DNA of 25,404 bases from a virus: positions 1-25,404 of the IMG/VR virus record IMGVR_UViG_3300025000_001427. One strand, 5' to 3'. The position numbers and the translations under genes are program-made. Position 1 is the first letter of the stretch, and every line of letters begins with the position of its first letter. This document shows positions 14,781 to 24,571 of the stretch, piece after piece. The notes beneath the pieces are model-generated. The model was not told the DNA's origin. It ran no database searches and was given only the letters and a program-made list of their open reading frames with translations.

Positions 14781-15302
14781 CTATAGAAGATCTTCGGGCA
14801 GTAAGCGCACGTGTTTGAAATCTTCGTACATTCTGACGATCGAGAGCTTGGCCTCAATGGGGAGTTTTTTCATTACTGAGCTGCCAAACTTAACGGATTT
14901 GTCTGAACGAACATATTCAAAAGCAAGTTCGATCTTGCCCGTGCGTGTCTGCGCCTTGTTGATGGCACGCAGGACGGTTGGGGGAATCGCCGTATAAGTG
15001 GCTTTGGGTTCGGCGACCTTGTCTGCTAACTGCGCGATCTGGTCTTGAAGTTTCTCCATTTGGTCTTGAACTGTGAAATCTCTATGGAGGACGGCCTCTT
15101 CACGCAGGAAGTACTCTACGGGGTGCCGCGTGATAATGGCATAATCTTCCAGATCGTCAATGCCGGGCGTGCGTGTGCCGTTCCACCAGCGACGTACCAA
15201 CGCGCCGGTTTTGTGTAATCGTTTCCCTATTTGTTCAGAAGAGAGTTCGGCGGCCTCTGCGGCCTCCCTCATCCTCTTCGCTCTCCATTCAATTTCTGGC
15301 AT
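14781..15302 (-). CDS. XRE-family phage repressor candidate
   Basis: A 173-aa protein. The start at 15302 is chosen because a consensus -10 (TATAAT) lies only about 20 nt upstream, with GGGGAAG between; an earlier ATG at 15335 would lie upstream of that -10. Residues about 5-62 form a helix-turn-helix: RAKRMREAAEAAELSSEQIG, then KRLHKTGALVRRWWNGTRTPGI..., then HPVEYFLRE. A coiled-coil linker (about 75-95) leads to a helical C-terminus ending KLSIVRMYEDFKHVRLL. There is no LexA/S24 peptidase domain and no ImmA-type protease neighbour, so induction by self-cleavage looks unlikely. It is divergent from the early operon, with operator-like repeats in between, as expected of the lysogeny regulator. 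Confidence 0.75.
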   Translation of the reverse strand: MPEIEWRAKRMREAAEAAELSSEQIGKRLHKTGALVRRWWNGTRTPGIDDLEDYAIITRHPVEYFLREEAVLHRDFTVQDQMEKLQDQIAQLADKVAEPKATYTAIPPTVLRAINKAQTRTGKIELAFEYVRSDKSVKFGSSVMKKLPIEAKLSIVRMYEDFKHVRLLPEDLL

Positions 15303-15320
15303 ATCCACTTCCCCGTATAG

Positions 15321-15349
15321 ATTATAACAGGCCATTACAAGCACCTCAA
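15321..15349 (-). promoter_or_regulatory. Leftward repressor promoter
   Basis: On the - strand, TTGAGG (15344-15349) and a perfect TATAAT (15321-15326) are separated by 17 bp. Transcription would start about 15314, immediately before the GGGGAAG and ATG of the repressor, giving a very short leader. Confidence 0.6.
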
Positions 15350-15378
15350 ACAATTTTAAAGCATTTTTGAAAAAAGAC

Positions 15379-21107: not shown

Positions 21108-21932
21108 GTGGACAAGAGCGAGGTGTTCATAAAAATCATGATTGAGTTTAGGGACCACATCAAAGACCTGAAAGGGCCGCAGGTCTCCGTGTTGCTGGTT
21201 ATCGCACTGCACAGCAACGGCAAAGACTCATGGCCGTCACTGTCCACAATCTGCGACAAGACAGGGTACAGTCGGCCAGCAGTTTGCGAGGCATTGAGAG
21301 ACTTGGAAAAAGGAGGATGGATTAAGGTTAAGAGGACTAACAGAAAGGTTAATCACTACGCACTTTCTACCAATTTGATCGGTATGGGAGACATATCAAA
21401 AGCGGGTCAAACTAGTAAACCTAGTTTACCAGACCTAGTTAACTCAGTTAACCACCCTAGTCAACGTAGTTTACTAGCGCTAGTTAACGAGGTTAACTCT
21501 AAGAAGAAACCAATTGAAGAAGAAACCAATGAAGAAGATACCCCTTATATTCCCCAAGGGGAAAAGAGTGAAATATACTCTCCAGACTTCAACGCGTTCT
21601 GGTCAGTATATCCAAGACCGTGTTACCGCAAACGTGCCTGGAAATGCTGGTGTACTCTCATCAATCGAAAGGTTGACCCTCAGAGGCTAATCAAGGCAGC
21701 GGGGAACTACGCGAGGCAATGCGCCGACAAAGGCACGACTGAGGGGTATATCAGCCACCCGGCTACGTTCCTCGGGCCAAGCGATCTATGGACAGAACAC
21801 GAAACCTACACGAAAGAGGTGAGCAAGGATGCAGGAAACAGCACTAAGGGTTTTAGAGGGCGCAAGGAGACAGCCTCAGAGCAAGGATACAGCAGGGCTA
21901 TTGACAAGCTATTCGCCCAGGGCGCACAGTGA
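21108..21932 (+). CDS. Phage replication initiator with N-terminal helix-turn-helix
   Basis: A 274-aa protein starting with GTG at 21108 after GAGGGG. Residues about 22-88 form a winged helix of the HTH_36 type: QVSVLLVIALHSNGKDSWPS, then LSTICDKTGYSRPAVCEALR, then DLEKGGWIKVKR. A low-complexity linker (about 98-150) is encoded by the iteron array. The C-terminal part (FNAFWSVYPRPCYRKRAWKC, then LIKAAGNYA, then YISHPATFLGPSDLW) is the domain common at the ends of phage initiators and DnaD/DnaT-like loaders. It should bind the iterons inside its own gene and recruit the DnaC-like loader encoded next. The plan is that of lambda O with P downstream. Confidence 0.82.
   Translation: MDKSEVFIKIMIEFRDHIKDLKGPQVSVLLVIALHSNGKDSWPSLSTICDKTGYSRPAVCEALRDLEKGGWIKVKRTNRKVNHYALSTNLIGMGDISKAGQTSKPSLPDLVNSVNHPSQRSLLALVNEVNSKKKPIEEETNEEDTPYIPQGEKSEIYSPDFNAFWSVYPRPCYRKRAWKCWCTLINRKVDPQRLIKAAGNYARQCADKGTTEGYISHPATFLGPSDLWTEHETYTKEVSKDAGNSTKGFRGRKETASEQGYSRAIDKLFAQGAQ
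21412..21540 (+). other. Candidate phage origin of replication: four iterons plus purine-rich tract
   Basis: Four tandem units start at 21412, 21435, 21457 and 21480 (period 23, 22, 23). Each follows CTAGTnAACnnaGTTnAC, an 18-bp near-palindrome with dyad GTnAAC-N3-GTTnAC. The third unit has one dyad mismatch and the second and fourth vary outside the core. Directly after them, 21498-21540 is almost all A and G and contains GAAGAAACCAAT twice (21503-21514 and 21519-21530). Iterons inside the initiator gene, followed by an asymmetric purine-rich region, match the layout of lambda ori. Confidence 0.75.
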
Positions 21933-22743
21933 CCCGTCAATCTGGGACGAGGTCGAGGAGACGCCAAGCGCCTATCACTGTAGCGATTGCGGAGTTATCC
22001 TCCCTTACAGAACGCGAGCTATGGGTACTAGATTCATGCACAGCCGCGAGGAGTGCGCTTGTGAGGTAAGAACGCGGGAATTGCGTGACGAGGCACGTAG
22101 AATGGATTTGGCGCGGCGTGTGTATATCAGCGAATCAGGCATCAAAGGCGAGCTTGCCGGGTATCGGTTGGCGCAGATCCAGAACAAGCCGAAAGAGGGA
22201 CTCGTTCCGGCAGGGTTTCGCGGCAAAGTGGTTGCAGTCGGCGAACTCAAGGCGATTGCTCAGAGGTACATTGACGGATTCCCGGACGATATGCCAAGAG
22301 TGTTGTTGCTGTCCGGTAGCGTAGGGTGCGGCAAGACTCACGTAGCTTGCTCAATCGCCAATGCGCTGCTCGACATGCCGTATCAGGTCCGGTATGTGAA
22401 CATGGTTAAGCTGTGGGCTATGCTCCCGCAGACTTGGAGTAGAGGCAAGGACGAATCGAAACCGAGCGACCCGATACCGGGACTCCTGGACGCAACGCTG
22501 TTAATCATGGACGAGTTGGAAAAGCTCACGAAAGATTGGCAGACAGCAGAGCTTTACCGAATCATCAACGGACGATACGAGAGCGGAAAACCGTACATCG
22601 TGACTACGAACATATGCAGCATGGAAGATATGAGGGCGGCAATCGGAGACAAGATCATGGACAGGTTGCTGCATCGGGCAGAGTGGTACTTCGTGGACGC
22701 CACGAGCCACCGATTAGCGGAGTTCGCGGGAGGGGCGAGATGA
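21829..22743 (+). CDS. DnaC-like helicase loader, AAA+ ATPase
   Basis: A 304-aa protein. Walker A is GSVGCGKTH (163-171), Walker B is LLIMDELEK (224-232), sensor-1 is VTTN (N261), and a likely arginine finger lies in IMDRLLHR. Ahead of the ATPase is a zinc knuckle, CSDC (51-54) and CAC (76-78), as in phage and Firmicutes DnaC/DnaI-type loaders. The chosen ATG overlaps the initiator gene by 104 bp; a TTG at 21901 would shorten the overlap, but its ribosome site is weak. The protein should load the replicative helicase at the origin bound by the upstream initiator. No helicase gene is seen in the window, so it may use the host DnaB or a gene further right. Confidence 0.88.
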   Translation: MQETALRVLEGARRQPQSKDTAGLLTSYSPRAHSDPSIWDEVEETPSAYHCSDCGVILPYRTRAMGTRFMHSREECACEVRTRELRDEARRMDLARRVYISESGIKGELAGYRLAQIQNKPKEGLVPAGFRGKVVAVGELKAIAQRYIDGFPDDMPRVLLLSGSVGCGKTHVACSIANALLDMPYQVRYVNMVKLWAMLPQTWSRGKDESKPSDPIPGLLDATLLIMDELEKLTKDWQTAELYRIINGRYESGKPYIVTTNICSMEDMRAAIGDKIMDRLLHRAEWYFVDATSHRLAEFAGGAR

Positions 22744-23704: not shown

Positions 23705-24571
23705 ATGAGCATGACAAGCACGAGGATTCCGTATTTAGCCGCTGTTGAAGCCGTTCGGTGGGACCCGATTACCGGATGTTCCAACGGCCCCGACATATGC
23801 GCTGTGTCGGCAGAGTGTTGGGCGCGGAAGATGGAAAAGATTCAATCCTGTATGAACTCGGAATGTGAGGCTGCATTAGGGGATGCGGATTGCATTTGGA
23901 GAGAAACCAACGGAGGTGGGGCATGTTGGCCTGACCTGTTTGTTCCGACATTTCACCCCGAGACATTACAAGCTCCGCTCCGCACCCGAAAGTCACGCGT
24001 GATAGCGGTCGGCTTCGGTGGCGATATGTGGAGCGATGTGGTTGACCCTGAGTGGCGTCGGCAGGTGTTTGAGGTCGAGGAACGGTGTCCGGGGCATGTG
24101 TTCGTCCACCTAACTAAGAATCCTGACAAGATACTTGAGAAGGAGTTGCCTAACCAGGATCATATTTGGATAGGCGCGAGCGTCTGCCGGACAGAAGACG
24201 TTGCACGAGTTTGGGCCATTGGTCAGGGTTACACTTATCTGACTCCTAAAGTTCATCGGTGGATTTCGTTTGAACCTCTCATTGGCCCTTTGGATATGGA
24301 GTCTGAGCCTTGGCTGGATTCACTGCCGTACATCCAGTTTGTCGTCATCGGCGGCCTCTCAAACGGTGCAGGTCAAGTTGTCCGTCCCGAGGACTGCGGT
24401 ACTCGTCCAGAGTGGGTACAGCCGATCTTGGATGCAGCGCATGAGACAGGATGCAAGGTGTTCCTGAAGAATCTCCAGCCGATCATCAAACAGTTGATCG
24501 ACCCGCGAACAGGCAAGGCGTTCACGAATCAAAACGAGTGGCGAGAAGTGCCGGAGGAATGGAAGCTATGA
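23705..24571 (+). CDS. Phage Gp37/Gp68 family protein (DUF5131)
   Basis: A 288-aa protein with GGAAGG upstream. The family layout is clear: WDPITGCSNGPDICAVSAEC (about 19-38) then WARKM, TFHPETLQAPLRTRKSRVIA, FGGDMWSD, HVFVHLTKNPDKIL, IWIGASVCRTEDVAR, WISFEPLIGPLD, FVVIGGLSNGAGQVVRPED, and CKVFLKNLQPI. This matches the DUF5131 pattern of W-x-P-x-x-G-C, then LTK, then EPL-x-G, then FxK, found in many phages and in some bacterial genomes. The fold is thought to be a TIM-barrel-like, radical-SAM-related architecture. The biochemical role is not established to my knowledge. An insertion with extra cysteines (CMNSECEAALGDADC) near residues 49-63 is unusual. Confidence 0.85.
   Translation: MSMTSTRIPYLAAVEAVRWDPITGCSNGPDICAVSAECWARKMEKIQSCMNSECEAALGDADCIWRETNGGGACWPDLFVPTFHPETLQAPLRTRKSRVIAVGFGGDMWSDVVDPEWRRQVFEVEERCPGHVFVHLTKNPDKILEKELPNQDHIWIGASVCRTEDVARVWAIGQGYTYLTPKVHRWISFEPLIGPLDMESEPWLDSLPYIQFVVIGGLSNGAGQVVRPEDCGTRPEWVQPILDAAHETGCKVFLKNLQPIIKQLIDPRTGKAFTNQNEWREVPEEWKL

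Follow-up and report, generated by a model that had tools for sequence, protein, structure and literature searches.

The window analysed here, a 25.4-kb virus record examined over its full length of 25,404 bp, is a fragment of a tailed phage that very probably carries a theta-type replication origin inside the gene for its own initiator, of the kind known from lambda O/ori/P and SPP1 gene 38. This origin would consist of an array of four iterons and the easily melted tract that follows them (Table 1). The intragenic layout itself is known from lambda, and the iteron belongs to a broadly shared class that we did not find described in a limited search of the open-access literature. The phage is probably temperate, and among the genes recognised by profile in the window are those for a serine recombinase, RecT, a YqaJ exonuclease, the DnaC-like loader and a RusA-like resolvase. 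A DUF5131 gene (phrog_2045, function unknown; 23705-24571, + strand) is also found within this replication and recombination cluster.

Table 1. Features of the initiator gene, the putative origin and the adjoining loader gene (positions in the window)
Feature	Position	Strand	Description
Initiator gene, O-like replication initiation protein	21108..21932	+	GTG start, 274 aa
Initiator domains			N-terminal wHTH, ~aa 1-90; disordered linker, ~91-157; helical C-terminal domain
Array of four iterons	21412..21497	+	consensus CTAGTNAAC-N3-GTTNAC, steps 23/22/23 bp
Iteron 1 dyad	21415..21429		GTAAACCTAGTTTAC, codon frame 1
Iteron 2 dyad	21438..21452		GTTAACTCAGTTAAC, codon frame 0
Iteron 3 dyad	21460..21474		GTCAACGTAGTTTAC, codon frame 1
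Iteron 4 dyad	21483..21497		GTTAACGAGGTTAAC, codon frame 0
Putative unwinding tract, AT/purine-rich	21499..21559	+	14-bp direct repeat, two copies
DnaC/IstB-like AAA+ helicase-loader gene	21829..22743	+	PF01695, 1.3e-15; phrog_50 (DnaC-like helicase loader), 4e-40

The iteron array

A preliminary description of this DNA had placed tandem units of 22-23 bp in the linker-coding part of a helix-turn-helix initiator gene, and this was confirmed. The units start at 21412, 21435, 21457 and 21480, CTA precedes each dyad, and the whole array is located within codons 102-130 of the open reading frame, in the linker part. All four dyads fit GTNAACNNNGTTNAC exactly, although the N base of unit 3 departs from perfect symmetry (GTCAAC..GTTTAC). 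No further copy of this pattern is present in the window, for which dinucleotide shuffles gave a mean of 0.01 copies and a maximum of 1. When the linker was recoded synonymously with the phage's own codon usage, 0, 1 or 2 copies were obtained in 20,000 trials, and never four. The array far exceeds both chance and what the peptide requires. As the steps are of 22 and 23 bp, the reading frame alternates from unit to unit (1,0,1,0), and the linker peptides that they encode are SKPSLP/SQRSLL and LVNSVN/LVNEVN.

The initiator protein

The winged helix of the initiator (aa 20-76) was recognised in Pfam by PF13730 (HTH_36; 1.7e-8) and MarR_2 (7.5e-8), while neither PF04492 (Phage_rep_O sensu stricto), which is matched by two other initiators of our set, nor a RepA_N domain gave a match in the same database. 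Among the PHROG profiles, phrog_270 (8.6e-25) covers aa 9-230, and a match that spans both the wHTH and the C-terminal domain places the protein in the O-like, phrog_270-678 superfamily. The O-like profile phrog_678 is matched by lambda O (1.7e-35), P22 gp18 (2.5e-38) and the window initiator (1.4e-11), and phrog_345, the best family of P22 gp18, matches the window initiator too (4e-5). Profiles are thus common to lambda O, P22 gp18, ST64B Sb42, the Acinetobacter O protein and the window initiator, and the fold, previously described as unrelated to that of lambda O, must be considered part of the same family of wHTH O-like initiators. The proposal that the phage made independent or strongly diverged use of the lambda design is consequently not supported.

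The structure predicted with AlphaFold2 has a pLDDT mostly above 80 in the wHTH and below 50 in the linker, with lower confidence for the helical C-terminal part, and the predicted disordered linker coincides with the stretch that encodes the array. Searches of the PDB returned no credible sequence relative of the window initiator or of lambda O, and Foldseek found only generic MarR/wHTH matches there for the window protein. In BFVD, by the same method, phage HTH, replisome-organizer and GpO-like proteins were matched. The TM-scores of these matches are low because the linker is disordered.

The adjacent tract and the helicase loader

An easily melted, AT-rich tract lies directly after the iterons, as in lambda. 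The least stable 100-bp duplex of the entire window begins at 21480/21481, and the 60 bp from 21492 are at the 99.96th percentile of duplex weakness in the window. The purine-rich direct repeat reported after the array is indeed present, its length being 14 bp instead of the 12 bp initially given (AAGAAGAAACCAAT, at 21501-21514 and again at 21517-21530). Likewise, the loader gene stands directly downstream, as previously indicated, with the correction that its start at 21829 overlaps the initiator end at 21932; its product is DnaC-like rather than P-like. GC skew, suggested earlier as a check, has no minimum or turning point at 21.4 kb and follows gene direction, so that it weighs neither for nor against the origin.

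Relatives that carry the dyad

Used as a single protein query for related loci, the window initiator returned no close relatives, and the array, as a nucleotide query against phage records, produced only two weak matches, both from Acinetobacter. Pattern scans of IMG/VR, in which two dyads at 22-23 bp or similar spacing were sought, identified 53 tandem-dyad loci. Inspection of their open frames located the array inside a wHTH initiator ORF, usually right after the wHTH, in 47 of them (duplicates and a few genes that are truncated or split being counted), just 3′ of a wHTH gene in two (L006 and L022) and elsewhere in the remaining four (L023, L031, L033 and L047).

The comparison set was made of 33 distinct complete initiator genes, that is, 32 plus that of the window. 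At 30% identity they fall into 14 single-linkage clusters, and therefore represent at least 14 lineages; by BLAST, the window initiator recovers only two of the others, with 26-33% identity. Phrog_270 (replication initiation protein) is matched by 26 of the 33 and phrog_678 likewise by 26, with related initiation families also represented, and the genes downstream include 13 DnaB-like helicases and 10 DnaC-like loaders. The dominant iteron steps are of 21-24 bp. The 60 bp 3′ of the last dyad are rich in AT when ranked within the gene that holds them (mean percentile 0.86, p=3.5e-6), and a mild purine enrichment is also seen (0.69, p=0.002), values obtained from relatives that are not fully independent.

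The dyad is found in more than one reading frame in 31 of the 33 genes; of the 114 iterons, 58, 48 and 8 are in frames 1, 0 and 2, respectively. Since every one of the three frames is used across phages, with unrelated peptides such as VNxVN, SKQSL and VSTTLT as the result, what is conserved is the DNA and not the peptide. Additionally, the base at the free position of the dyad depends on the frame. T is never found at the left N (N3) in frame 1, where the right N (N13) is invariably T or C, and in frame 2 only C or T occupies the left N, a frame-dependent choice by which stop codons are avoided locally and which is unlike the behaviour of a protein repeat. The comparison of iterons among relatives, which had been proposed as a way to refute the origin should the protein linker be kept and the DNA repeats lost, came out the opposite way, with the dyad kept and the frames differing. 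The dyad hence illustrates how a DNA element may persist within protein-coding sequence.

One of the two arrays placed 3′ of a wHTH gene (L006, IMGVR_UViG_3300049276_000003, 670-809) is intergenic and has five dyads of unit CTAGTTAACGTGGTTAACTA, four of them at 22-bp steps, beside two DnaA boxes (TTATCCACA) at 764 and 777; from its sequence, it looks like a plasmid-style iteron origin. Some arrays (L034, L041, L042 and L053) have, beside the usual 22-23 bp, steps of 17 bp in which the dyads nearly abut. In several AT-rich relatives (L001, L018, L020, L029, L034, L041 and L045), AATAATATAGATAATAAT-like tracts of TAA/TAG triplets follow the last dyad. These may recall DnaA-trio elements, and they are encoded as N/I/D runs, for which a coding bias is possible.

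Comparison with known origins

The layout that had been likened to lambda O/ori/P, with intragenic iterons, an easily melted tract and a loader gene, is well supported by comparative evidence. In lambda, O is bound at the iterons and unwinding takes place in the AT-rich tract (PMC7466680). The linker part of the lambda initiator gene holds four dyadic iterons of 18 bp, at 20/24/23-bp steps, and lambda also has a purine/AT-rich tract past iteron 4, the loader gene next and an initiator of the wHTH O-like family, all of which resemble the window. By contrast, the iteron sequences differ (ATCCCTCAAAACGAGGGA vs CTAGTNAACNNNGTTNAC), the window loader is a DnaC/IstB-like AAA+ protein (phrog_50) and not lambda P (phrog_109), and the window initiator scores to HTH_36 instead of PF04492.

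In SPP1, the direct repeats of oriL, which are bound by gp38, lie in gene 38, and the helicase is brought in by gp39/gp40 (PMC6316719). The likeness here is by description: direct repeats and an AT-rich unwinding element within the initiator gene, together with a loader and a DnaB-type helicase (PMC6316719). SPP1 also has a second origin, oriR, whereas none was seen in the window fragment.

Intragenic repeats of ~22-24 bp are also present in P22 gene 18 and in the gene for replication protein O of the Acinetobacter Vieuvirus Ab1656-2, although the product of P22 gene 12 resembles DnaB and is not a loader. The Acinetobacter protein scores to PF04492 and, below the curated cut-off, to HTH_36 (PF13730), and its gene contains a very similar 15-bp dyad, TAGTAAAAATTTTTTAC, which has the same outer GTNAA-N5-TTNAC frame as the window and different inner bases. 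Outside phages, pDSM4216 of Bacillus smithii (complete and circular, 12.5 kb), for which no Rep gene is annotated, has tandem CCTAGTGAAC..GATTCAC units at 23 bp inside an HTH-domain gene. Unlike the window it is a plasmid, it has one core mismatch (GATTCAC for the GTTCAC half) and no DnaC-like gene is annotated adjacent to the array. PLE RepA, a RepA_N protein with dyadic iterons near a poly-A tract (PMC7145576), is similar to the window only in design.

Proposed origin function and alternative explanations

By analogy with lambda and SPP1, each 15-bp dyad would most likely be the binding site for a dimer of the initiator, through its N-terminal winged helix. With successive sites about two helical turns apart, four such dimers would assemble into a nucleoprotein complex (an "O-some"), which, as in those phages, might strain and open the easily melted DNA next to it, at 21.50-21.56 kb. 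The host DnaB helicase could then be delivered to the separated strands by the initiator, through its C-terminal part, by the DnaC-like loader encoded beside it, or by both, following the same two models.

Other functions for the array must also be considered. The initiator, or another phage repressor, could bind within the gene solely to control transcription of the replication operon. Its wHTH does resemble MarR-type repressors, and in Bacteroidota chromosomes the core dyad occurs between genes, in inverted pairs that are likely to be regulatory. However, all four dyads are in the middle of the gene, with no copy on the promoter side or near the repressor-like gene at 14781-15353 and no convincing promoter at the array, and an operator leaves unexplained the weak tract, the association with helicases and loaders, and the plasmid and DnaA-box cases. 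We consequently regard a purely regulatory array as highly improbable; autoregulation could nevertheless coexist with origin function. There is an even fainter chance that the array functions in partition/incompatibility or copy control and is not the core of an origin. In iteron plasmids, iterons often act in copy control as well as in initiation, and TubR plasmid-partition wHTH proteins were among the Foldseek matches. Against this, the array adjoins the easily melted tract, its neighbours are loaders and helicases, and none of the genes recognised near it encodes a partition ATPase or GTPase.

That the repeats are a peptide feature, in which a linker such as LVNSVN/SKPSLP is selected as protein and the symmetry of the DNA is a by-product, is scarcely credible. 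The linker peptide does appear repetitive and of low complexity, but the unit is read in alternating frames in the window and in all three across phages, with unrelated peptides as the outcome, synonymous recoding destroys the array, and in L006 the array lies outside any gene.

If the array and tract are taken as an origin, the combination of this dyad and an easily melted tract in a wHTH initiator gene would allow origins to be placed in uncultured phages at the sequence level. We further propose, quite tentatively, that GTNAACNNNGTTNAC may be an origin "word" that is widely shared, a single class of iteron serving many diverged wHTH initiators in phages and plasmids alike, in which the free N is set by the reading frame and which is read by an S/T-R conserved where the recognition helix begins. 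This S/T-R is present in 25 of 35 initiators of the class and in 2 of 11 outside it (p=0.0036, with sequences that are not independent). Were this the case, both the origins and the initiator specificity of uncultured phages could be read from sequence.

Other iterons and other dyads

A protein-selected sample from bacterial genomes (13 loci, some with mis-picked ORFs) serves as illustration only. Relatives found by protein usually have tandem linker units of ~20-24 bp, or multiples, with other sequences, for instance in ST64B, Pseudomonas, Arthrobacter and Vibrio PVA1. In the initiator genes of L134, L135, L138 and L139, intragenic tandem repeats of 22-23 bp or multiples were observed, again of differing sequence, and L136, L140 and L141, found by protein, had no clear palindromic 22-bp repeats. 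From such sequences, the intragenic-repeat design appears common to O-like initiators, and the GTNAAC iteron one of several classes, which could be matched to recognition-helix residues.

Most of the pattern matches in bacterial chromosomes were pairs located between genes, in Bacteroidota and a few other groups, and we considered them a separate phenomenon. Since the core dyad also occurs in these chromosomal pairs, the core alone is no proof of an origin. Inverted pairs of the form GTAAAC..GTTGAC-N7-GTCAAC..GTTTAC (L057-L129, e.g., L058, L062 and L087) are found in many Mucilaginibacter, Pedobacter and other Bacteroidota, in which they probably serve as operators for a regulator whose core dyad is similar. 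A GTCAAC..GTTGAC pair recurs in Actinoplanes.
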